Of a stretch of DNA of 64,000 bases, positions 3,921-17,938 are shown piece by piece (within the stretch, counting starts at the first letter, position 1; each line of letters opens with the position of its first letter). A program made the position numbers and the translations under genes. This stretch comes from Blastococcus sp. PRF04-17 (GTDB lineage: Bacteria > Actinomycetota > Actinomycetes > Mycobacteriales > Geodermatophilaceae). The notes below the pieces were generated by a model. The model made no database searches. It was given only the letters and a program-made list of their open reading frames with translations, and was not told the origin of the DNA. The stretch lies in assembly GCF_023016265.1 (NCBI RefSeq), contig NZ_CP095412.1, positions 372,001 through 436,000 on the forward strand, given 5' to 3'.

Positions 3921-5408
3921 GTGCCTGCCCGGCCGGGCGACCCGCTCGCCGAGTACCGCCGCAAGCGGGATCCCGCGCGCACTGCCGAGCCGGTGCCGGC
4001 GGAGGGCCGGCCCCTGCCGGTGGGGAACGACGACACCTTCGTCGTCCAGGAGCACCACACGCCCCGTGGCCGCACCGGTGAGCGGGTGCACTGGGATCTG
4101 CGGCTGGAACGGGACGGCGTCCTGAAGAGCTGGGCCGTGCCGAAGGGCCCGCCGACGGTGCCCGGACCCAACCGGCTCGCCGTCCCGACCGAGGACCATC
4201 CGCTGGAGTACGCATCGTTCGCCGGCACGATCGCCGCGGGGGAGTACGGCGGCGGCGAGGTCACCATCTGGGACGCCGGCCGGTACGCCACCGAGAAGTG
4301 GGACGACAAGCACATCATCGTGAGCTTCGACGGCCGCCGGCTGGCCGGCCGGTACGCGCTGTTCCCCGTCGACGAGAAGGCCTGGAACATCCGCAAGCTC
4401 GACGACACACCTCCGGTGGGGAACCGGGCCGACGAGCTGATCGACGTCCCGCTGCCGATGCTGGCCTCGCCGTCGACCATGCCCACCGACGCCGAGGACG
4501 CCCAGTGGGGCTACGAGTTCAAGTGGGACGGCGTGCGCGCGGTGGCCGCCGTGCGGGACGGCGTCCTGCAGCTGACCTCCCGCAAGGGCACCCCGATCAC
4601 CGTGCGCTACCCGGAGGTGGCCACGCTGCCCACGGCGCTGGCCGGACACGACGCCGTCCTCGACGGCGAGATCGTGCTGCTCGACGAGGCGGGACGACCC
4701 GACTTCGGGGCGCTGCAGAGCCGGATGCACCGCACCGGGCCGGAGGTGCCGCAGCTCGCGGCGGCGCGGCCGGTCACCTACCTGGTCTTCGACCTGCTGT
4801 CGTGGGACGGCGAGGACCTGCTCGACCGCCCGTTCGCCGAGCGCCGGCGCCTCCTCGACGGACTCGGCATCGCCGGGCACCGCTGGGTGACGACGCCGTG
4901 GTTCGAGGGCGACGGCTCGGGAGTGGGCGCCGACGTGCTCGCGGCCAGCCAGGAGAACCGGCTAGAAGGCGTGGTCGCCAAGCGGCTGACGTCGGTGTAC
5001 CGCCCGGGCGTGCGCAGTCCCGACTGGCGGAAGATCAAGAACGTCCGCGCGCAGTCGGTCGTCGTCGGCGGGTGGCGGCCGGGTCAGGGACGGCGGTCCG
5101 GGGGCATCGGCTCGCTGCTGTTCGGTGTGCCGGACGACGAGGGCCGGCTGGTCTACGCCGGGCACGTCGGCACCGGCTTCAGCGACCAGGACCTCGACGA
5201 CCTGCAGCGGATGCTCACCCCGCGGAAGACCTCGCCGTTCGCCGGCACGCTGCCGCGGGAGATCACCCGCGACGCGCACTGGGTCGAGCCCGACCTCGTG
5301 GGGGAGGTCGCCTTCTCGGAGTGGACGGCGGACCGCCGGCTGCGGCACCCGGCGTGGCGCGGCGTGCGCGACGACCTGGAGCCCGACGACGTCGTGGTGG
5401 AGTCGTGA
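3921..5408 (+). CDS. ligD: LigD phosphoesterase-ligase protein (PE-LIG)
   Basis: 495-aa protein with two LigD modules. The N-terminal 3'-phosphoesterase (about 35-165) shows QEH, VHWDLRLE and EDHPLEY, giving expected metal/catalytic residues H45, H57, D59, R61, H93 and Y97. The ATP-dependent ligase domain (about 178-495) carries YEFKWDGVR with K201 as the adenylated lysine, then LDGEIVLLDE, YLVFDLLSWDG and EGVVAKR, and an OB fold after about residue 385 (KIKNVRAQSVVVGGWRPGQG). GTG start right after the Ku stop. The polymerase module is absent here and is encoded by the next gene: a split LigD. Confidence 0.95.
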   Translation: MPARPGDPLAEYRRKRDPARTAEPVPAEGRPLPVGNDDTFVVQEHHTPRGRTGERVHWDLRLERDGVLKSWAVPKGPPTVPGPNRLAVPTEDHPLEYASFAGTIAAGEYGGGEVTIWDAGRYATEKWDDKHIIVSFDGRRLAGRYALFPVDEKAWNIRKLDDTPPVGNRADELIDVPLPMLASPSTMPTDAEDAQWGYEFKWDGVRAVAAVRDGVLQLTSRKGTPITVRYPEVATLPTALAGHDAVLDGEIVLLDEAGRPDFGALQSRMHRTGPEVPQLAAARPVTYLVFDLLSWDGEDLLDRPFAERRRLLDGLGIAGHRWVTTPWFEGDGSGVGADVLAASQENRLEGVVAKRLTSVYRPGVRSPDWRKIKNVRAQSVVVGGWRPGQGRRSGGIGSLLFGVPDDEGRLVYAGHVGTGFSDQDLDDLQRMLTPRKTSPFAGTLPREITRDAHWVEPDLVGEVAFSEWTADRRLRHPAWRGVRDDLEPDDVVVES

Positions 5409-7464: not shown

Positions 7465-8805
7465 ATGAGCGAGTCGGGCACCACCACATCTGCGTCGACC
7501 GGCACCGCCGCCCGCGCGGCCGGATGGGTCGGGCCGCTGTGCTGGATCGCCGTCCTGCTGGACGGCTTCGACCTCGTGGTGGTGGGCACCGTGGTGCCGA
7601 CCCTGCAGTCGCCGGAGGAGTGGGACCTCACCGGCGCAGGGACGACGTTCGTCATCACGATCGGCCTGGTCGGCATGATGATCGGCGCGCTGACCATCGG
7701 CACGCTCACCGACCTGGTGGGACGGCGCAAGGCGCTGATCGGCGCGGTGGTCGCGTTCTCGCTGTTCACGCTGCTGTGCGCGTTCGCACCCAACGAGGGC
7801 GTGTTCGGCGTACTGCGGTTCCTGGCCGGGGTGGGGCTGGGCGGCTGCCTGCCGACCGCGATCGCGATGGTCAACGAGTTCTCGCGCTCGGGGCGCAGCG
7901 GCCGGGCGACCACGACGATCATGACCGGCTACCACGTGGGCGCGGTGGCGACCGCCGCGCTGGCCATCGTGGTGATCCCCACCCTGGGCTGGCGCGCGAT
8001 GTTCGTCATCGGCGCGCTGCCCGCAGTCGTCCTCGTCCCGCTGATGCTCAGGCAGCTGCCGGAGTCGGCGTCCTGGCTGGAGGCCCGCGGCCGCCGGGCC
8101 GAGGCCGAGGAGGTGGCCCGCCGCTACGGGTTGCAGCTCGAGCAGCCGGCCGCCCCGGTGGCCGAGCAGGCGGGCGAGTCGGCGGGCGCCACGCTCAGGA
8201 CGCTGTTCAGCGCGGGCTACGTCCGCAACACCGTGGTCATCGGCGTCACGTCGTTCATGGGGCTGCTGCTCGTGTACGGGCTGAACAACTGGCTGCCGAC
8301 GATCATGCGCGAGGCGGACTACGAGCTCGGCGCGGCGCTGGCCTTCCTGCTGGTGCTCAACATCGGCGCGATCGTGGGCCTGCTGGTCGCGGGGACGGTC
8401 GCCGACCGCATCGGGGCCCGCGCTGCGGGCATCGCCTGGTTCGGTGGCGCGGCGGTGTTCCTCGCGCTGCTGTCGATCCGGCTGCCCATCGCCGGCATCT
8501 ACCTGATGGTGTTCCTCACCGGATGCTTCGTGTTCAGCGCGCAGGTGCTCGTCTACGCCTTCGTCAGCGCCAACCACCCGCCGCAGGTCCGTGCGACGGC
8601 GCTGGGCTGGTCGGCGGGCGCGGGCCGCATCGGCGCGATCGTCGGACCGGTCATCACCGGCGCACTGTTCGCGACGGGCAACGCCTTCCCGGGTGGCTTC
8701 TACCTGTTCGCCGTGGTCGGTGCCCTCGGCGCGATCGCGCTCAGCGTCGCGGTGACGGTGCGCTCCTCCGGAGCGCACCGCGGCCAGGTGCCGTCCTCCA
8801 GCTGA
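7465..8805 (+). CDS. MFS transporter, aromatic acid:H+ symporter (AAHS)-like
   Basis: 446-aa major facilitator with about 12 membrane helices. The first helix contains LLDGFDLVVVGTVVPTL; DGFD in helix 1 is typical of the AAHS family, which imports aromatic acids such as benzoate and protocatechuate by proton symport. The loop 2-3 motif reads GTLTDLVGRRKAL. A long cytosolic loop (about 205-250, RRAEAEEVARRYG) separates the two halves, as in the family. ATG 7465 follows a short GGAG. No aromatic-catabolism genes are adjacent, so the substrate is unknown. The dyad element at 7255-7334 lies 130 bp upstream. Confidence 0.85.
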   Translation: MSESGTTTSASTGTAARAAGWVGPLCWIAVLLDGFDLVVVGTVVPTLQSPEEWDLTGAGTTFVITIGLVGMMIGALTIGTLTDLVGRRKALIGAVVAFSLFTLLCAFAPNEGVFGVLRFLAGVGLGGCLPTAIAMVNEFSRSGRSGRATTTIMTGYHVGAVATAALAIVVIPTLGWRAMFVIGALPAVVLVPLMLRQLPESASWLEARGRRAEAEEVARRYGLQLEQPAAPVAEQAGESAGATLRTLFSAGYVRNTVVIGVTSFMGLLLVYGLNNWLPTIMREADYELGAALAFLLVLNIGAIVGLLVAGTVADRIGARAAGIAWFGGAAVFLALLSIRLPIAGIYLMVFLTGCFVFSAQVLVYAFVSANHPPQVRATALGWSAGAGRIGAIVGPVITGALFATGNAFPGGFYLFAVVGALGAIALSVAVTVRSSGAHRGQVPSSS

Positions 8806-9864: not shown

Positions 9865-11175
9865 TCAGCGCTCCGGGTCGGGCGGCCCCGGTGCCTCCAC
9901 CGGCTCGCGCACGAGTTCGGTGCCTTCGTCGCCGCCGGCGACCGCAGCCACCGTGCCGTCCTCGGCCACCTCCGGCGACTTGCCGTCGAACTCGTCGCGT
10001 ACGTACCGGTAGATCACGGCGACCAGGGCGGCGACCGGCACGGCGAGGAAGGCGCCCACGATGCCGCGCAGGTTGCCGCCGGCGGTGACGGCCAGGATGA
10101 CCACGGCGGCGTGCAGGTTGAAGCCCCGGCCCTGGATGATCGGCTGCAGGACGTTGCCCTCGATCTGCTGCACGACCACCACGATCGCCAGCACGATCAG
10201 GGCTGTGGTCAGCCCGTTGCTCACCAGGGCGATCAGGACGGCGAAGGCGCCGGCGACGAACGCGCCGATGATCGGGATGAACGCGCCGAAGAACGTCAGG
10301 ACCGCCAGCGGGATCACGAGCGGGACGCCGAGGATCCACAGGCCGATGCCGATGAAGAACGCGTCGATGAAGCCGACCAGCGCCTGCTGACGGATGAACT
10401 CCGACAGCGTCGCCCAGGTCTTGTAGGAGAGCGCGGAGACGTGCCGCGCCGCGCGCGGACCGGTCTGGGCGGCCAGCCAGGGCACCCAGCGCGGTCCGTC
10501 CTTGAGGTAGAAGAAGACCAGGACGAGCGACAGGACCAGGTTGATCAGGCTGTTGCCGACGGCCGAGGCGCCCGTGAGGGCGTATCCCGCGATGTTCTGG
10601 GCGTTGCCCTGGATCGAGTTGATCACCGAGTCGACGGCCTCGCCGATCTGGTCCTCGCCCAGGTTGAACGGCGGCCCCTGCAACCACTCCTGCACGTCCT
10701 GGAGCGCGGCGGTGGCGGCGTCGGCCAGCTCGGTGACCTGGTCGGCGACCTGCGGCGCGAGCGCGACGATGATGCCGACGAGGGCGGCCAGGAAGCCGAC
10801 GAGGACGGTGGCGGCGGCGAGGGCGGGCGGCCAGCCGTGCCGGCGCAGGAAACGGGCGAGCGGCCACAGCACCGTGGCGATCAGCAGCCCGAGCACGATG
10901 GGCAGGAGGATCGACCACAGCTTTCCGAGGACGTAGCCCAGCACGACCACGGCAGCGGCGACGAGCAGGAACTGCGCGGAGGCGATGGCCAGCGTGCGGC
11001 TCGCGGACCGCATGCGCTCGGCGCGCTGGAACTTCGGAGCCGGGGCGACCGTCGCGGCCGCTAAGTCGGGATCCGGGGCGTTGCGCCGCGCGGCGGGGGT
11101 GTCCGCCGGGCTCGACGTCTGCTCGGAGTCGGGGCTCCGTTCGTCGGCGGAGCGGCCGGGACGTCGGAGCCTCAT
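9865..11175 (-). CDS. AI-2E family transporter (first of two)
   Basis: 436-aa membrane protein of the AI-2E/UPF0118 (PerM-like) family; members export autoinducer-2 or act as ion antiporters, and the substrate here is unknown. About eight helices between residues 60 and 405, with the conserved FFYLKDGPRWVPWL region in the middle and FGAFIPIIGAFVAG near the C-terminal cluster. The N-terminal 55 residues are hydrophilic and the C-terminal 35 acidic. ATG 11175 is preferred; the frame stays open upstream but enters the divergent PPOX gene. A paralogue lies at 18864-20186. Confidence 0.88.
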   Translation of the reverse strand: MRLRRPGRSADERSPDSEQTSSPADTPAARRNAPDPDLAAATVAPAPKFQRAERMRSASRTLAIASAQFLLVAAAVVVLGYVLGKLWSILLPIVLGLLIATVLWPLARFLRRHGWPPALAAATVLVGFLAALVGIIVALAPQVADQVTELADAATAALQDVQEWLQGPPFNLGEDQIGEAVDSVINSIQGNAQNIAGYALTGASAVGNSLINLVLSLVLVFFYLKDGPRWVPWLAAQTGPRAARHVSALSYKTWATLSEFIRQQALVGFIDAFFIGIGLWILGVPLVIPLAVLTFFGAFIPIIGAFVAGAFAVLIALVSNGLTTALIVLAIVVVVQQIEGNVLQPIIQGRGFNLHAAVVILAVTAGGNLRGIVGAFLAVPVAALVAVIYRYVRDEFDGKSPEVAEDGTVAAVAGGDEGTELVREPVEAPGPPDPER

Positions 11176-12351: not shown

Positions 12352-12873
12352 ATGGGCATCGCCTCGCTCGTCGTCCTCGCCGTCGTCGCGGCCGTCGGGC
12401 TGTTGCTCACGGCCCGGGGGGAGCGACGCCGTCCGGCCTGGGCGGCCGCCTTCCTGGCCGCGCTGCTCGTCCTCTCCGGCGCGCTCGCCTGGATGGCCGA
12501 GGACGTCGCGGGCGGCGTCCTCGAGGGTGGAACCGCCGCGGCCGTGCTGGCCGCCGTACTGGGTGGGGGTCCGATCGCCACCGCCGTCCTCCGTGCCGCC
12601 GACCCCGCGTCGATCGGTGTCGCCGGCGGCCCGCAGGACCCGGCGATCCTCCGCGGCGGTGCCTGGATCGGCGTGCTCGAGCGGGCGGCCATCGCGGTGG
12701 CGATGCTCGCGGGCTCCGCCGAGGCCCTCGCCGTCGTGGTCGCGATCAAGGGGCTGGGCCGCTTCGCCGAACTCCGCGCCCCGGCCGCCGCCGAGCGGTT
12801 CATCGTCGGCACGCTGGCCAGCGGGCTCTGGGCGGCCGGGTGCGTGGGGGTCGCCCTCCTGCTGCGCGGCTGA
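12352..12873 (+). CDS. Integral membrane protein paired with the SatD-like gene
   Basis: 173-aa protein with five probable membrane helices: near 2-20, 30-48, 58-80, 100-125 and 145-172. No catalytic motif is visible, apart from a short acidic EDVAGGVLEG loop and a VVAIKGLGRFAELR amphipathic segment. Its start lies 9 bases after the SatD-like stop, so the two are co-transcribed and probably act together; a SatD/SatE-type pair is a reasonable comparison but only an inference. Function unknown. Confidence 0.75.
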   Translation: MGIASLVVLAVVAAVGLLLTARGERRRPAWAAAFLAALLVLSGALAWMAEDVAGGVLEGGTAAAVLAAVLGGGPIATAVLRAADPASIGVAGGPQDPAILRGGAWIGVLERAAIAVAMLAGSAEALAVVVAIKGLGRFAELRAPAAAERFIVGTLASGLWAAGCVGVALLLRG

Positions 12874-12959: not shown

Positions 12960-13601
12960 GTGAGCAACGACGAGGCACCGCGACCGCTCTCGCCCGAGGA
13001 ACTGGCCGCCGAGACGGGGGCCGCCCTGCCCGACAAGGAAGTCATCTCGCTGCTCGACCTCAACGCCGACGTCGACCTCGCGCTCGACGCCGCGGCCCCC
13101 ATCGACCTCGCCGTGGCCGCCAACGCGAACGTCGCTGCCCCGATCGACGCGGCCGTCGCCGCGAACGTGCTGTCGGTCGACTCCAGCGCCCAGGCGCTGG
13201 CCGACCAGGGCGTGCTGATCGACCAGGGCATCACCGGCGAGGCCGTCGCCACCGCGCCGCAGGACAGCACCATCGACCAGGGCGACGACACCGTCGGCGA
13301 GCCGGCCCCGGCCCCGGCGCCCACCCAGGGGGTGACCGAGACCGTCGGCGACCCGCTGTCCGGGAACCTGCTCGACGTCGACGTCAACCTGGCTGCCGAC
13401 CTCGACCTCGCCGCCCCGATCGCCGGCGCCGTCGCGGCCAACGCCAACGTCGCCGCCCCGATCGACGCGGCCGTGGCGGCCAACATCGGCTCGGTCGGAT
13501 CGGAAGCGACCGCGATCGCGCAGCAGGACGCGATCATCACGCAGAACATCGACGCCGACGCCTCTGCGACGGCCGACCAGCAGTCGAACATCACGCAGTA
13601 A
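12960..13601 (+). CDS. Ala/Asp-rich duplicated-repeat protein, possible substrate of the M50 protease
   Basis: 213-aa acidic protein with no recognised domain. It is built from two copies of a roughly 78-residue block (about 31-108 and 137-213) joined by a Pro/Ala linker (114-122). Residues 51-69 and 157-175 are identical over 19 positions (AVAANANVAAPIDAAVAAN). Each block ends in Gln/Asp/Asn-rich sequence, the second with QQDAIITQN and QQSNITQ. There is no signal peptide, membrane segment or cysteine. GTG 12960 follows GGAGGACAC. The M50 protease gene starts 17 bases downstream, so a leader-like N-terminus (1-30) with a processed or secreted repeat region is plausible but unproven. Confidence 0.7.
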   Translation: MSNDEAPRPLSPEELAAETGAALPDKEVISLLDLNADVDLALDAAAPIDLAVAANANVAAPIDAAVAANVLSVDSSAQALADQGVLIDQGITGEAVATAPQDSTIDQGDDTVGEPAPAPAPTQGVTETVGDPLSGNLLDVDVNLAADLDLAAPIAGAVAANANVAAPIDAAVAANIGSVGSEATAIAQQDAIITQNIDADASATADQQSNITQ

Positions 13602-13618
13602 GCGCGCGTGTCCCACCG

Positions 13619-16063
13619 ATGACCGACCCCGCCACCCGACCGATCGCGGTCGCGGGCGCCGCCGCCGCGGGGAGCGGAGCCGAGGTGCTGCGGCGGGCGA
13701 CCGGCGTCGAGCTGCTCGGCGAGGTGCCCGGCTCCGGGTACCGCCGGCCGCCCGCGCTGGCCCGCCGGGGCGACGGCCAGGTCCTCCAGCTCACCCCGCT
13801 GTTGCACCAGGTGCTGCTCGCGGTCGACGGCCGCCGCACCGTCGACGAGATCGCCGAGGAGGTCGGCCGCGCCACCGGCCGGCTCGTCCGCGCGGACGAC
13901 GTCCAGCAGCTGGTGGCGTCGGGGCTACGTCCCCTCGGGCTGCTGCGCACCGCCGACGGCGGCGAGCCGGAGCTCCGCCGCTCCGATCCGCTGCTCGCGC
14001 TGAAGTTCCGGAAGGTGGTCACCGACCCCGCGGTCACCCGGCGCCTGACCGCGCCGTTCGCGGTCCTGTTCACGCCGCTGGTGGTCGTGCCCGTGGTCCT
14101 CGCCTTCGGGTTCGTGGCGGTCTGGGTGTTGTTCGAGCAAGGTCTGGCCGCGGCCACGGCACAGGCCTTCGCCAACCCGGCACTGTTCGTCACCGTCGTC
14201 CTGGTGACGGTGCTGTCGGCCGGCTTCCACGAGTTCGGGCACGCCGCGGCCGCGCGCTACGGCGGCTCGACGCCGGGCGCGATGGGCTTCGGCATCTACC
14301 TCTTCTGGCCGGCCTTCTACACCGACGTCACCGACAGCTACCGCCTCGGCCGGGCCGGGCGGGTGCGCACCGACCTCGGCGGCCTCTACTTCAACGCGAT
14401 CGTCGTCCTGCTCTCGTTCGGCGTCTGGTGGGTCACCGGCTGGCACGCCGTCCTGCTGATCGTGGCCACCCAGGTGCTGCAGATGATCCGGCAGCTCCTG
14501 CCGTTGCTGCGCTTCGACGGTTACCACGTGCTCGCCGACGTGACCGGCGTCCCCGACCTGTACCAGCGCATCGGGCCGGTGCTCAAGGGACTGCTGCCCG
14601 GCCGGTGGCACCAGCCGGAGGCGACCGCGCTCAAGACCTGGGCGCGGGTGGTGGTGATCGCCTGGATCCTCGTCGTGATCCCGCTGATGGCGGTGTCGCT
14701 GCTGCTCATGGCGCTCGCCCTGCCCCGGCTCCTGGCCACGGCCTGGGCCTCGGTCCAGGACCAGGCGTCGCGCATGGGAGAGGCGTTCGGCGAAGGCGAC
14801 ATGCTGGCCGTCCTCGCGCGTGCCCTGGGCATCGTGGCCGTCGTCATCCCCCTGCTCGGCATCGGGTACGTCCTGCTCCGCCTGGTGCGGCGCACGGCGC
14901 TCGGCGTGTGGCGCCGCACCGACGGCCGCCCCGCACGCCGAGGTGTGGCGGTTCTCGTGGCCGCCGCGCTGGTGACCGGACTGGCCTGGCTGTGGTGGCC
15001 GGTGGACGACCGGTACCGGCCGGTGCGGGCGTGGGAGGGCGGCACCGTGCTGGACGCCGTCCCGGCCGCCAGCAGCACCGCCCTCGCCGAGGGGTCCCGG
15101 GGCGCCGCGACCACGATCTGGCCGGAGGACGCCGGACCGCTGCCCACCGAGGACCGCCCGCAACTGGCCATGGTGCTGGTGCCGGCGTCCGAGGCCGTGG
15201 CCGAGGGCAGCGAGAGCACCACGGCCGACGGCGGGACCGCGCCCACCTGGGTCTTCCCGTTCGACCGGCCGTTGCCCCCGGCCGACGGCGACAACCAGGC
15301 GCTCGCGGTGAACAGGGAGGACGGCTCCGTCCTCTACGACGTCGCGTTCGCCCTCGTGTGGGCCGACGGGGAGACCGTCGACAGCCGCAACGAGGCGTAC
15401 GCCTTCGCCAGCTGCCGGGACTGCCGCACCGTGGCGGTGGCCTTCCAGGTCGTGCTGGTCGTCGGCTCGGCCGACGTGGTCGTGCCGCAGAACCTCGCCG
15501 GTGCGCTGAACTACGCCTGCCTGGAGTGCGTCACCTACGCGCTGGCCACCCAGCTGGTGGTGTCGGTGCCCGGCCCGTTGAGCGACGACGCGGCGCGCGA
15601 ACTGGCCGAGATCTGGGCGGAGCTCCAGGCCTTCGGCGAGGACATCGAGGACGTTCCGCTCGCCGCGCTGCGCGACCGGTTGACCGAGTTCGAGGCCCGC
15701 ATCCTCGACGTCGTCCGCGAGGACGTCGGAGAAGCGCCCTCCGAGGGGGAGGAGCGCGCCGACACCGGCACCACGGACGACGGCGGTACGGACGACGGCA
15801 CCACCGACGACGGCACGACCGTGGACGGCGGCACCTCCGACGACGGGAGCAGCACCGGCGGCGGACCTGCGACGTCCACGGGTTCCGCCGAGCCGGGTGG
15901 CGGGGGGACGTCGGGGTCCACCGGTACGGCGCCGACCAGCGGTGCCCCCGTGTCGTCCAGCGCCTCCTCGAGCACCAGCCCGGCCTCGAGCACGAGCCCG
16001 GCCACGTCGGCGGGCAGCACGGCCGGCGCGGAGACCTCGGCTCCGGCCGAACCGACCGGCTGA
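13619..16063 (+). CDS. PqqD-like/M50 zinc metalloprotease membrane protein
   Basis: 814-aa membrane protein. Residues about 30-110 look like a PqqD-type winged-helix domain (LTPLLHQVLLAVDGRRTVDE), which in other systems binds peptide substrates. Membrane helices flank HEFGH (H204, E205, H208), the zinc-protease motif; FDGYHVL supplies D300 as likely third ligand, as in site-2/M50 proteases. After further helices (about 345-470) an extracytoplasmic domain has two CxxC pairs (C599/C602 and C634/C637). The last 100 residues are Thr/Ser/Gly/Asp-rich and disordered. Proteins of this type are annotated as putative peptide zinc metalloproteases. ATG 13619; co-transcribed with the repeat protein. Confidence 0.85.
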   Translation: MTDPATRPIAVAGAAAAGSGAEVLRRATGVELLGEVPGSGYRRPPALARRGDGQVLQLTPLLHQVLLAVDGRRTVDEIAEEVGRATGRLVRADDVQQLVASGLRPLGLLRTADGGEPELRRSDPLLALKFRKVVTDPAVTRRLTAPFAVLFTPLVVVPVVLAFGFVAVWVLFEQGLAAATAQAFANPALFVTVVLVTVLSAGFHEFGHAAAARYGGSTPGAMGFGIYLFWPAFYTDVTDSYRLGRAGRVRTDLGGLYFNAIVVLLSFGVWWVTGWHAVLLIVATQVLQMIRQLLPLLRFDGYHVLADVTGVPDLYQRIGPVLKGLLPGRWHQPEATALKTWARVVVIAWILVVIPLMAVSLLLMALALPRLLATAWASVQDQASRMGEAFGEGDMLAVLARALGIVAVVIPLLGIGYVLLRLVRRTALGVWRRTDGRPARRGVAVLVAAALVTGLAWLWWPVDDRYRPVRAWEGGTVLDAVPAASSTALAEGSRGAATTIWPEDAGPLPTEDRPQLAMVLVPASEAVAEGSESTTADGGTAPTWVFPFDRPLPPADGDNQALAVNREDGSVLYDVAFALVWADGETVDSRNEAYAFASCRDCRTVAVAFQVVLVVGSADVVVPQNLAGALNYACLECVTYALATQLVVSVPGPLSDDAARELAEIWAELQAFGEDIEDVPLAALRDRLTEFEARILDVVREDVGEAPSEGEERADTGTTDDGGTDDGTTDDGTTVDGGTSDDGSSTGGGPATSTGSAEPGGGGTSGSTGTAPTSGAPVSSSASSSTSPASSTSPATSAGSTAGAETSAPAEPTG

Positions 16064-16075
16064 TCGGCGCGTTCC

Positions 16076-16104
16076 GAAAGAACGGGGGCGCGTCCGGACA
16101 GACT
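16076..16104 (+). promoter_or_regulatory. Putative autoregulated promoter of the ECF sigma gene
   Basis: A 25-bp element (16076-16100) starting GAAAGAACGGGG and ending TCCGGACA recurs with 22/25 identity at 16613-16637, ahead of the next gene. GAAAGA at 16076-16081 and CAGACT at 16099-16104 are 17 bases apart, and CAGACT is 6 bases from the GTG at 16111, which fits a leaderless ECF-type promoter. GAAC in the -35 region is typical of ECF promoters. Confidence 0.5.
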
Positions 16105-16110
16105 GTCGAC

Positions 16111-16671
16111 GTGCGCCCCGCTGCCGACGACGCCGCCCGCCGCGGCCGATTCGAGGACGTCGTGGCCGCCGTGTACGAGCCCGTGCAGCGCTACCTGCTG
16201 CGGCGAGCCGACCCGGCGACGGCCGACGACGTGCTCGGCGACGTGTTGCTCGTCCTCTGGCGCCGGCTCGACGACGTGCCGGCCGACGCCGTCCTGCCCT
16301 GGACCTACGGGGTCGCCCGCGGCTGCCTGGCGAACAGCCGGCGCAGCGCCGTCCGCCAGGAGCGCGTCGTCCAGCGGCTCGCGCAGGTCTCCCGCGCCGA
16401 GGAGGAGCCCGACCCCGAGGGAGACCTGGCCGAGGCGCTGCAGGCGTTGCCGGAGGCCGATCGCGAACTGCTCCGGCTCTGGGCCTGGGAGCAGCTGGCG
16501 CCCCGCGAGATCGCCCTGGCGCTGGAGACCAGCCCGAACGCGGTGAGCATCCGGTTGCACCGCGCCAAGCAGAAGCTCAAGGCGGCCCTGCTGGCGGTCA
16601 GGGACCCCACCGGAAAGAACGGGGACGGATCCGGACATTCCGGAGTGCGAGAGGGAGGAGGGGCGCGATGA
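16111..16671 (+). CDS. ECF-type RNA polymerase sigma factor
   Basis: 186-aa sigma-70 family protein of extracytoplasmic-function size. Region 2 spans about 15-75 (VYEPVQRYLLRRADPATADD and LLVLWRRLDDVPADAVLPW), and region 4 about 105-160 (LPEADRELLRLWAWEQLAPR and TSPNAVSIRLHRAKQKL, the -35-binding helix-turn-helix). GTG 16111 has no Shine-Dalgarno and is probably leaderless. The stop overlaps the next start as ATGA, coupling it to a single-pass membrane protein, the usual place for an anti-sigma factor. It follows the M50 protease by 47 bp, which suggests control by regulated proteolysis. Confidence 0.92.
   Translation: MRPAADDAARRGRFEDVVAAVYEPVQRYLLRRADPATADDVLGDVLLVLWRRLDDVPADAVLPWTYGVARGCLANSRRSAVRQERVVQRLAQVSRAEEEPDPEGDLAEALQALPEADRELLRLWAWEQLAPREIALALETSPNAVSIRLHRAKQKLKAALLAVRDPTGKNGDGSGHSGVREGGGAR
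16613..16637 (+). promoter_or_regulatory. Second copy of the 25-bp sigma-locus element
   Basis: Differs from 16076-16100 at three positions only. It lies inside the 3' end of the sigma gene, 31 bases upstream of the ATG of the membrane protein gene. It may be a second promoter or regulator site. Being in coding sequence, part of the identity could be coincidental, but the protein sequence here (PTGKNGDGSGHS) is not a conserved sigma-factor segment. Confidence 0.4.
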
Positions 16672-17313
16672 CCGACATGCCGGGCCAGGACATGCCGGAC
16701 GACGAACTGCGGGCCCGGCTCTCCCGGCTCGACCCGGCATCCGCCGGGACCCCCGTCGACCCCGTCACGAGCCCGCGGGCTCGTTCGCTCATGGAGCGTG
16801 CCATGACCGCACCCGTCCAGACTCCTTCTCCCGCTCCCGCGGGAGCCGACGGCTCGCCGCCGCCCGCTGTGGCTGCTCGCCGCCGCGGCGGCCCTCGTGC
16901 TCGTCGCCGTCGTCAGCGGTGCCCTGCTCCGCGGCGGCGACGGCCCGGGGGCCGACCGGGAGCCGGCGCCGCTCGCGCTCGAGCTGCCGGCCGCCGACGC
17001 GGCCATGTCCTGCGTCATGTTCGACGTGGCGTTCCTCGCTCAGATGCCCGTCGCGTTCGCGGGCACCGTGACCGGGATCGAGGACGGGCAGGTCTCCCTC
17101 GACGTCGACCGCTGGTACCGCGGTGGCACGGCCGAGCGCGTGACCATCGCCGTTCCGCCGGAGCAGTCCTCGGCCGCGCTGGACGGCGTCGACTTCCGCA
17201 CCGGCGAGCGCTACCTGATCACCGCGACCGACGGCACGGTCAACGGCTGCGGCTTCAGCGGGCCGGCCAACCCGGAGCTGGAGAGCGCGTACGACGAGGC
17301 CTTCGGCGGCTGA
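16668..17313 (+). CDS. Single-pass membrane protein following the sigma gene, possible anti-sigma factor (frameshifted)
   Basis: Two frames are needed. From ATG 16668 (overlapping the sigma stop) the first reads MTDMPGQDMPDDELRARLSRLDP and is sensible to about residue 65. The second, from about 16861, reads RPLWLLAAAAALVLVAVVSG, a membrane helix, then an extracytoplasmic domain with MSCVMFDVAF, VSLDVDRWYRG and NGCGFSGPANPE to the stop at 17313. Removing one C near 16860 joins them (..SPPPLWLLAAA). The short cytosolic N-terminus, single helix and outer domain fit an anti-sigma factor, but no zinc-binding HxxxCxxC is present. The outer domain looks OB/TIMP-like by eye only. Confidence 0.65.
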
Positions 17314-17390: not shown

Positions 17391-17938
17391 GTGCCCGAGT
17401 CGTCGTCGGCAGCCGGTGCCGTCCGCAACCTCGAGCTGCTCGGCATCTACTGCAACGACCACCTGGCCGCCGCCACCGGGGGATCGAGCTGGTGAGCCGC
17501 ATGCTCGGCCGCCACCGCGGCGGGGAGTACGAGCAGCCGCTCGAGCAGCTGCTCGACGAGCTGCGCGAGGAGCGGTCCGCCGTCCGCGCCTCGATACAGG
17601 CCCTCGACCTGCCGGTGCGGCAGTACAAGCAGGTGGGTGCGTGGGTGGGGGAGAAGTTCTCCCGCGCGAAGCTCAACGGGCACCTGCTCTCCCGGTCGCC
17701 GTTGTCCGACCTGGTCGAGTTCGAGTTCATCGCCACGGCGGTCCTGGCCAAGCGCGCCGGCTTCGAGACCCTGCGCGAGATCGCCGCGGTCGACTCCCGC
17801 CTGGACGGCGACCTGCTCGACCGGCTCATCGCGCAGGCCGACAAGCAGCACGACTGGCTGGCCGACGCCCGGCGGGAGGTCGCCGCCCGCGTGTTCGGCG
17901 GACGGGTCGGTCCCGCCGACGCCGCCGCCAGCAGCTGA
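17391..17938 (+). CDS. Small helical hypothetical protein (frameshifted)
   Basis: Two frames join into one protein of about 182 aa. GTG 17391 gives VPESSSAAGAVRNLELLGIYCNDHLAAATGG and stops at 17495 in a G run; the next frame continues IELVSRMLGRHRGGEYEQPL and ends at 17938. One extra G in the G5 run at about 17479-17483 would restore NDHLAAATGGIELVSRM. The rest is helical, with KLNGHLLSRSPLSDLVEFE and AQADKQHDWLADARREVA; I recognise this as a conserved actinobacterial family but know no function or Pfam name for it. GGAGG precedes the GTG. Confidence 0.65.

Follow-up and report, generated by a model that had tools for sequence, protein, structure and literature searches.

Introduction

Leader removal in daptide clusters is described for MpaP, an intramembrane site-2 protease to which an RRE is fused (PMC10036551). 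Other RiPP pathways use the M50 proteases EpeP, TglG and TmoG, of which EpeP is believed both to cut a small peptide and to export it (PMC10885120). Geodermatophilus obscurus is reported to produce abundant extracellular amyloid that is recognised by an amyloid antibody, for which the available text of the report names no gene (PMC3035280).

Here we describe a locus from Blastococcus sp. PRF04-17 within a stretch of 64,000 nucleotides, referred to as the window. An initial annotation had proposed that four consecutive genes, coding for a repeat protein, a protease with a PqqD-type domain, an ECF sigma factor and a membrane protein, make up a candidate system. All four genes are present, but the conserved unit consists of the repeat protein and the protease only, and the membrane protein gene, although also present, is split over two reading frames in the window. 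Among the open-access papers listed in literature searches, none describes the system of peptide, protease and tail domain dealt with below in its title or the opening of its abstract, and the term 'M50' is absent from the main text of PMC7470986, PMC12710340 and PMC13381572. The features of the locus are as follows.

12352..12873, + strand: upstream flanking gene, marker of the empty site
12960..13601, + strand: repeat protein precursor, 213 aa; homologue directly 5' of the protease in 21 of 22 loci
12960..13058, + strand: leader part, residues 1-33; invariant columns in alignments A2 and A4, limit of the leader putative
13059..13283, + strand: module 1, residues 34-108, P.D.A.A.N..S..S.A.A.A.Q
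13371..13598, + strand: module 2, a copy of module 1 by duplication (hhalign probability 99.6), residues 138-213
13619..16063, + strand: RRE/PqqD-M50 membrane protease of the site-2-protease type, 814 aa
13679..13957, + strand: RRE/PqqD domain, about residues 21-113 (AlphaFold2; Foldseek/VIA matches)
14228..14242, + strand: HEFGH (H204, E205, H208), predicted membrane segment
14516..14518, + strand: D300, invariant in alignments A1 (13 rows) and A3 (23 rows)
15236..15583, + strand: predicted extracytoplasmic tail domain, residues 540-655, two CxxC motifs
15485..15553, + strand: P623-Q645, position-for-position match to the repeat module (Ser to Cys)
16111..16671, + strand: ECF sigma factor, outside the conserved unit
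16668..17313, + strand: anti-sigma-like membrane protein gene, two reading frames, outside the conserved unit
17492..17938, + strand: downstream flanking gene, marker of the empty site

Further upstream, a 96-base tRNA-Gly is predicted by ARAGORN at 10518-10613 (+); it lies within an apparent coding sequence on the opposite strand and is probably spurious.

Results

The repeat protein and the protease are gained or lost together

Genome contigs were scanned for the protease, which gave 22 loci, and 61 related genomes were additionally searched directly. It can be seen that a homologue of the repeat protein is encoded just 5' of the protease in all but one of these loci (21/22), the exception being L067, where the contig begins 120 bases ahead of the match. 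Blastococcus and Geodermatophilus are the closest named relatives; carriers of the pair include Blastococcus aurantiacus DSM 44268 (L064) and Geodermatophilus ruber DSM 45317 (L057), as well as Nocardioides and Kribbella strains. Among genomes of the same genus the pair is present in six of 16. Nine of the ten pair-less genus-mates (the tenth is G012) have the two flanking genes adjacent to each other, with 170-347 bp between the match ends, and the flanks are likewise adjacent in G017, a genome of a different genus in which the pair lies elsewhere on the same contig. Because the flanks are adjacent in pair-less genus-mates, we conclude that gain or loss affects the two genes as one unit.

The initial annotation had suggested looking for the repeat protein next to PqqD-M50 homologues. 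We found a repeat-protein match adjoining 32 of the 33 proteases that have a CxxC tail of the window type (that of L072 is a fragment, and L067 lies at the contig edge). The refuting condition named in the initial annotation, that homologues of the protease usually lack the proposed partners, does not hold for the repeat protein, which is conserved; it does hold for the sigma half of the proposal, matches to the sigma and anti-sigma-like proteins being confined, among the fetched loci, to the window and Blastococcus RYN_169.

In Sinomonas susongensis A31 (L072), the protease from 7989 reads HEFGR, not HEFGH, and the repeat ORF at 7770-7976 is open over its final 69 residues only, so that protease and repeat gene alike appear to be decaying there.

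A membrane protease with an RRE-like domain

The RRE/PqqD domain was modelled by AlphaFold2 with block-mean pLDDT values of 73-94, and Foldseek/VIA gave matches to PqqD and to RRE-leader complexes; the model has the predicted winged-helix fold of an RRE. H204, E205 and D300 are invariant in alignment A3 (23 rows) and H208 is present in 22 of 23, and by motif and hydropathy the HExxH sequence and the distal Asp lie in predicted membrane segments, as in M50/site-2 proteases. The PqqD-type domain, HEFGH motif and D300 that had been picked out originally are thus borne out by fold match and conserved residues. Hydropathy plots, read by eye, indicate about seven membrane segments with an N-in/C-out topology.

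The gathering score of PF02163 was not reached (11.9 bits, cut-off 27.2), and we therefore term the protease 'M50-type' on the basis of its motif and of subthreshold matches to daptide and LiaK models. When the protease alignment was searched against the PDB, six matches were returned up to E 10, of which the best had an E of 0.053 and none was relevant. The whole protease model had no solved Foldseek match at E <=0.001, sensible matches being obtained for the RRE part alone. The AlphaFold2 model of the tail domain was poor, which we count against the cassette model set out in the Discussion. In a plasmid collection, distant proteases were found in two records from Streptomyces, each annotated 'hypothetical protein'.

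The repeat protein

The leader of the repeat protein is conserved as LSPEEL..E.G.ALPDKEV.SLLD. The two modules that follow align with each other over 74 columns (hhalign probability 99.6), a score reached by none of 40 shuffles. Judged from its sequence, the window protein consists of two fused modules and is a duplicated version of peptides that elsewhere have a single module and occur in tandem.

Of the 186 residues past the leader, 27 are acidic and none is Lys or Arg; for comparison, the other window proteins of this region contain 6.9-15.1% Lys/Arg. The region is free of Lys and Arg in 20 of 21 aligned repeat-protein sequences (window included) and in 46 of the 62 precursors, of several types, that hold LPx[RK]E; 29 of the 8266 residues of this latter set are basic. 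The 16 precursors that do contain Lys or Arg count against the cassette model. There is no evident Sec signal, and a chain devoid of positive charges may be what non-Sec export would favour. Having no Lys or Arg, the mature chain would also resist trypsin digestion, and routine proteomics could therefore miss it.

The AlphaFold2 model of the repeat protein has a mean pLDDT of 48.8 and is too uncertain for use; at this low confidence it places helices at residues 32-44 and 49-57, which again counts against the cassette model. A significant beta-type alternation in hydropathy was seen for residues 34-66 of the repeat protein and for one Cys peptide, and was not significant in four other stretches tested. 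We conjecture that the chain may form fibres or amyloid.

The window's repeat protein matched no Pfam family up to E 10, and its alignment matched nothing in the PDB up to the same value; neither it nor the protease had a match at E 0.1 or better in PHROGs or PADLOC. In scans that covered a selection of the peptides and three of the separate domain proteins described below, none of the three components exceeded the cut-off of any Pfam or NCBIfam family.

A wider family of proteases and leader peptides

When 296 genomes of the phylum were searched with a profile (A1) of 13 protease cores, at least 27 had a match at E <=1e-20, a few of daptide type among them. Taking proteases with a profile E <=1e-90 gave a set of 57, seven duplicate records (L056, L058-L061, L063 and L065) and the weaker or truncated matches L053-L055 and L134-L138 having been dropped beforehand; L135 and L136 have daptide-type peptides. 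A leader peptide or protein was detected by profile within 3 kb of 45 of the 57 proteases, on the same strand in all except L113 and L119, where it is divergent. By eye, and relying on a loose motif, we recognised a leader peptide beside nine more (L048, which has two proteases, L049, L050, L123, L125, L126, L128 and L133), and none was found near the remaining three (L052, L067, which is at a contig edge, and L122); the case of L122 counts against the cassette model. A leader-bearing peptide or protein thus adjoins 54 of 57 related proteases, in agreement with the original suggestion that protease and repeat protein belong together, although many rows are close kin and the counts are consequently not independent events.

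The leaders share LPx[RK]xx[MLIV], and the sequence past this motif differs strongly between subfamilies. A leader that is kept while the cores vary is as expected of a recognition leader. Single modules of about 65 residues are found in tandem in several lineages, with four in L116 and three each in L117 and L127.

Several members of the family have features of their own. L048, L049 and L050, all of the same genus, contain a second subfamily with leaders of the form MFEDQxVELLPARTTM and Asn/Gly/Ala-rich cores, and these peptides lie 5' of proteases without a CxxC tail. Cys is present in the cores of leader peptides at L129 (5839-6120), L130 (4169-4480), L131 (5845-6351) and L132 (494-904). 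L124 has its own leader peptide with LLPGREAL at 4092-4313 beside an RRE-M50 protease, and in L125 three peptides, each with an LLPER or a VLPER motif, lie 5' of position 5106, also beside an RRE-M50 protease; the genomes of L124 and L125 belong to a family (f18) that also holds chaplin-rich genomes.

Comparison with described systems

The window protease resembles the daptide protease MpaP (NF041824) in having an N-terminal RRE on a membrane HExxH protease and short leader-bearing ORFs nearby. However, it scores 98.5 bits against an equivalog cut-off of 300, and the leader motif is LPDKEV or LPDREEM here and ELExMEAP in daptides. The window precursor also lacks the C-terminal Thr, ending in ...SNITQ, no oxidoreductase, aminotransferase or methyltransferase genes lie between the cassette flanks, and there is in addition a large CxxC tail domain and a protein-sized, duplicated substrate. 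A daptide-like or other RiPP pathway, in which the RRE-protease would free membrane-active core peptides (bacteriocin or signal) that are possibly modified by enzymes encoded elsewhere, would fit the RRE-S2P architecture and the subthreshold daptide-model match. It would also fit the tandem leader-bearing paralogues in L116, L117 and L127, and the retention of the leader motif while the cores differ (LPARTTM, LPGREAL and LPERSVL types). We nevertheless regard such a pathway as unlikely, given simple two-gene cassettes with no modification gene between the flanks and post-leader chains that are 185-308 residues long, acidic and duplicated; moreover, the available text on daptides mentions no module-sharing partner domain (PMC10036551).

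A match to the EpeP/YydH-LiaK model NF058609 covers residues 182-311 with 40.3 bits, but the cut-off of 225 is not reached. The epe operon contains epimerase and ABC genes; the cassette has neither, and has instead RRE-like and tail domains.

Like the chaplins (PF03777), the family occurs in one-module (short) and two-module (long) forms. One Cys-bearing peptide of the wider family gave a weak match to PF03777 (E 0.016), and comparison of the chaplin profile with three Cys peptides (L129-L131, QVPIGIAANLC type) gave an hhalign probability of 60, with none of 60 shuffles as good. When window-type modules were compared with the chaplin profile the probability was at most 6.7, with 0, 25 and 1 of 60 shuffles as good in three comparisons, and with the short modules 3-7 of 60 shuffles did better. 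A chaplin identity for the window protein, which has no PF03777 match, was rejected, and the resemblance is kept as a lead for the Cys-bearing cousins only. Chaplins also differ in that no RRE protease is named for them in the available text of PMC7766987.

The tail domain of the protease resembles the peptide module

A domain with two CxxC motifs follows the last membrane segment in 33 proteases. In the window its second half reads P.N.A.A.N..C..C.T.A.A.Q, and the spacing is equal to that of the peptide module, P.[ND].A.A.N..S..S.A.A.A.Q. When 24 short modules were aligned with the 33 tails, hhalign gave a score of 28.3 (probability 77, pairwise E 2e-5) over 30 ungapped columns; this score was reached by 0/60 plain and 0/60 parity-keeping column shuffles, the maximum being 19.1. 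The 24 short modules come from organisms whose proteases, within contig reach, have no such tail, although in L116, L119 and L127 the protease runs to the contig end and absence of the tail there is not proven. With the window-family profiles alone the likeness between tail and module was not significant, as one and two of 40 shuffles were as good. The tail profile detected the L042 repeat protein in two stretches (E 0.0018), and no other repeat protein at E 0.01.

We also found the tail domain in separate proteins at seven loci (L046, L047, L113, L117, L119, L124 and L201), and most of these proteins have an apparent signal sequence when judged by eye. With the exception of L047, where the domain protein lies beside a second peptide set of the L046 genome, the separate protein occurs in a genome whose protease, where seen, lacks the tail. 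Parts that are fused in some lineages and encoded by separate genes in others classically act together, and the two arrangements of the domain suggest that it functions jointly with the protease. Most striking among the new findings, as far as profile comparison can tell, is that the predicted outside domain of the protease is related to the module of its putative substrate and is elsewhere a separate partner.

To survey how often the components co-occur, 296 genomes were scored in three surveys, with no more than 5, 20 and 13 candidates per genome scored for protease, peptide and domain, respectively, with the identity of genomes across surveys taken from recurring labels. The protease was found in at least 27 genomes, the peptide in at least 19 and the tail domain in at least 16. 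Peptide and protease co-occur in at least 18 (hypergeometric p 3e-21), domain and peptide in at least 14 (4e-18), domain and protease in at least 14 (7e-15), and all three in at least 13, the p values ignoring kinship. Some genomes depart from this pattern. G066 has peptides at a contig edge and no protease match; in G230 protease and domain are present, but its peptide (that of L124) has diverged too far to be picked up by the peptide profile. Two cases count against the association, namely G104, with a tail domain and no match to protease or peptide, and G217, where peptides and domain are on a different contig from the protease.

Two further stretches can be described. At L047 (G058:C61, 8242-10366) there are leader peptides, ORFs with a shared leader but unrelated cores, and a CxxC-domain protein, with no protease within the fetched stretch. 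At L201 (G217:C4:543500-557500) three leader peptides are followed by an apparently secreted CxxC-domain protein; no protease is encoded within the fetched stretch, that genome's protease being on another contig.

Resemblance between tail and module could also mean that the tail is a pseudo-substrate which regulates the protease or recaptures its product, and that the repeat protein is not a polymer but a soluble extracellular protein, for instance a hydration or ion-binding polyelectrolyte. The strong acidity of the chain and its lack of Lys and Arg would suit such a role, as would the existence of the domain as a separate, apparently secreted protein; a separate copy is, however, hard to square with control of an active site that faces the cytosol, and we consider this explanation distinctly improbable. 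For the cassette reading that we prefer, curli offer no more than a works-like analogy. CsgA is the curli fibre subunit and CsgB the nucleator, and the likeness lies in an anchored partner that resembles the subunit repeat.

The sigma and anti-sigma-like genes are neighbours of the pair

Among the fetched loci, matches to the window's sigma and anti-sigma-like genes lie beside the pair in the window and in Blastococcus RYN_169 only, and no sigma match was found between the protease and the downstream flank in seven further cassettes (L037, L039-L043 and L062). Relatives of the sigma factor were present in seven of 41 genomes at E <=1e-25: in G002 and G045 the pair is present with the sigma relative on a different contig, and G016, G018 and G042 have a sigma relative and no match to the pair. 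The anti-sigma-like gene of the window has one frame from 16668 and another ending at 17313. Its homologue in RYN_169 is a single open frame with 67% and 63% identity to the two parts, and the split in the window could reflect either a genuine frameshift or a mistake in the assembled sequence.

The initial annotation had suggested testing whether the sigma and membrane protein genes are conserved with the pair, and among the fetched loci they adjoin it in no more than two genomes. The accompanying idea, that cleavage of the anti-sigma factor releases sigma, finds no comparative support, and the anti-sigma-like frame is broken in the window. With so few such neighbours and a split anti-sigma-like gene, sigma release is unsupported; as a conserved feature it was rejected, the sigma genes not being kept beside the pair. 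Site-2 proteases classically cut anti-sigma factors, the sigma gene is on the same strand and starts 47 bp past the protease stop, and both genes are at the equivalent place in RYN_169. Regulated intramembrane proteolysis, with the M50 protease cutting the anti-sigma-like protein to free the ECF sigma factor and the repeat protein acting as signal or bystander, is nonetheless very improbable, as these genes adjoin the pair in just two of the genomes represented among the fetched loci, sigma relatives otherwise lie on a different contig or in genomes that lack the pair, the window's anti-sigma-like gene is in two frames, and the protease carries what appears to be an RRE-like domain of peptide-binding type. 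We take the sigma and anti-sigma-like genes to be neighbours of the pair and not parts of the system.

Discussion

We consider it probable, though by no means certain, that the two genes form a cassette for leader-directed processing and export, in which an anchoring, adaptor or assembly role would fall to the tail domain. Of the claims made here, the best supported is that the protease processes the repeat protein in a leader-directed way, a prediction for which the genetics gives good support. The pairing, the leader motif, the RRE-like fold, the catalytic residues, the similarity of the modules and the occurrence of the domain as a fusion or as a separate gene can be read at the level of sequence and model; from these we infer binding, cleavage and its site, the export route, assembly and a role at the surface.

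In the cassette model, the repeat protein would be synthesised in the cytosol, where its LPx[RK]xx[MLIV] leader would be bound by the cytosolic RRE/PqqD domain of the protease. The site-2-protease core would then remove the leader, and the acidic, Lys/Arg-free and unmodified remainder would cross the membrane with the protease's help. Outside, the Cys-paired tail domain, which is like the substrate module, may be an anchor, adaptor or assembly partner of the released modules, and the end product would be a polymer at the cell surface or in the extracellular space.

A more specific version of this model is that assembly at the surface is Sec-independent, the protease both releasing and translocating the chain and the Cys-locked copy of the module, either fused to the protease or present as a separate partner outside, nucleating or anchoring the polymer, which would make the cassette a candidate source of the G. 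obscurus amyloid. We put this forward tentatively, as a possibility that is rather doubtful in its full form.

So far, site-2 proteases with a fused RRE have been described for small RiPPs, and here the leader logic apparently serves a protein-sized repeat chain with no modification genes in the cassette. The findings point to the cassette as a so far unrecognised route for the export and assembly of a surface protein. If true, the protease would be one that mimics its substrate and doubles as an assembly platform; this would extend RiPP-style leader recognition to cell-surface material, and would suggest an export route that avoids Sec.
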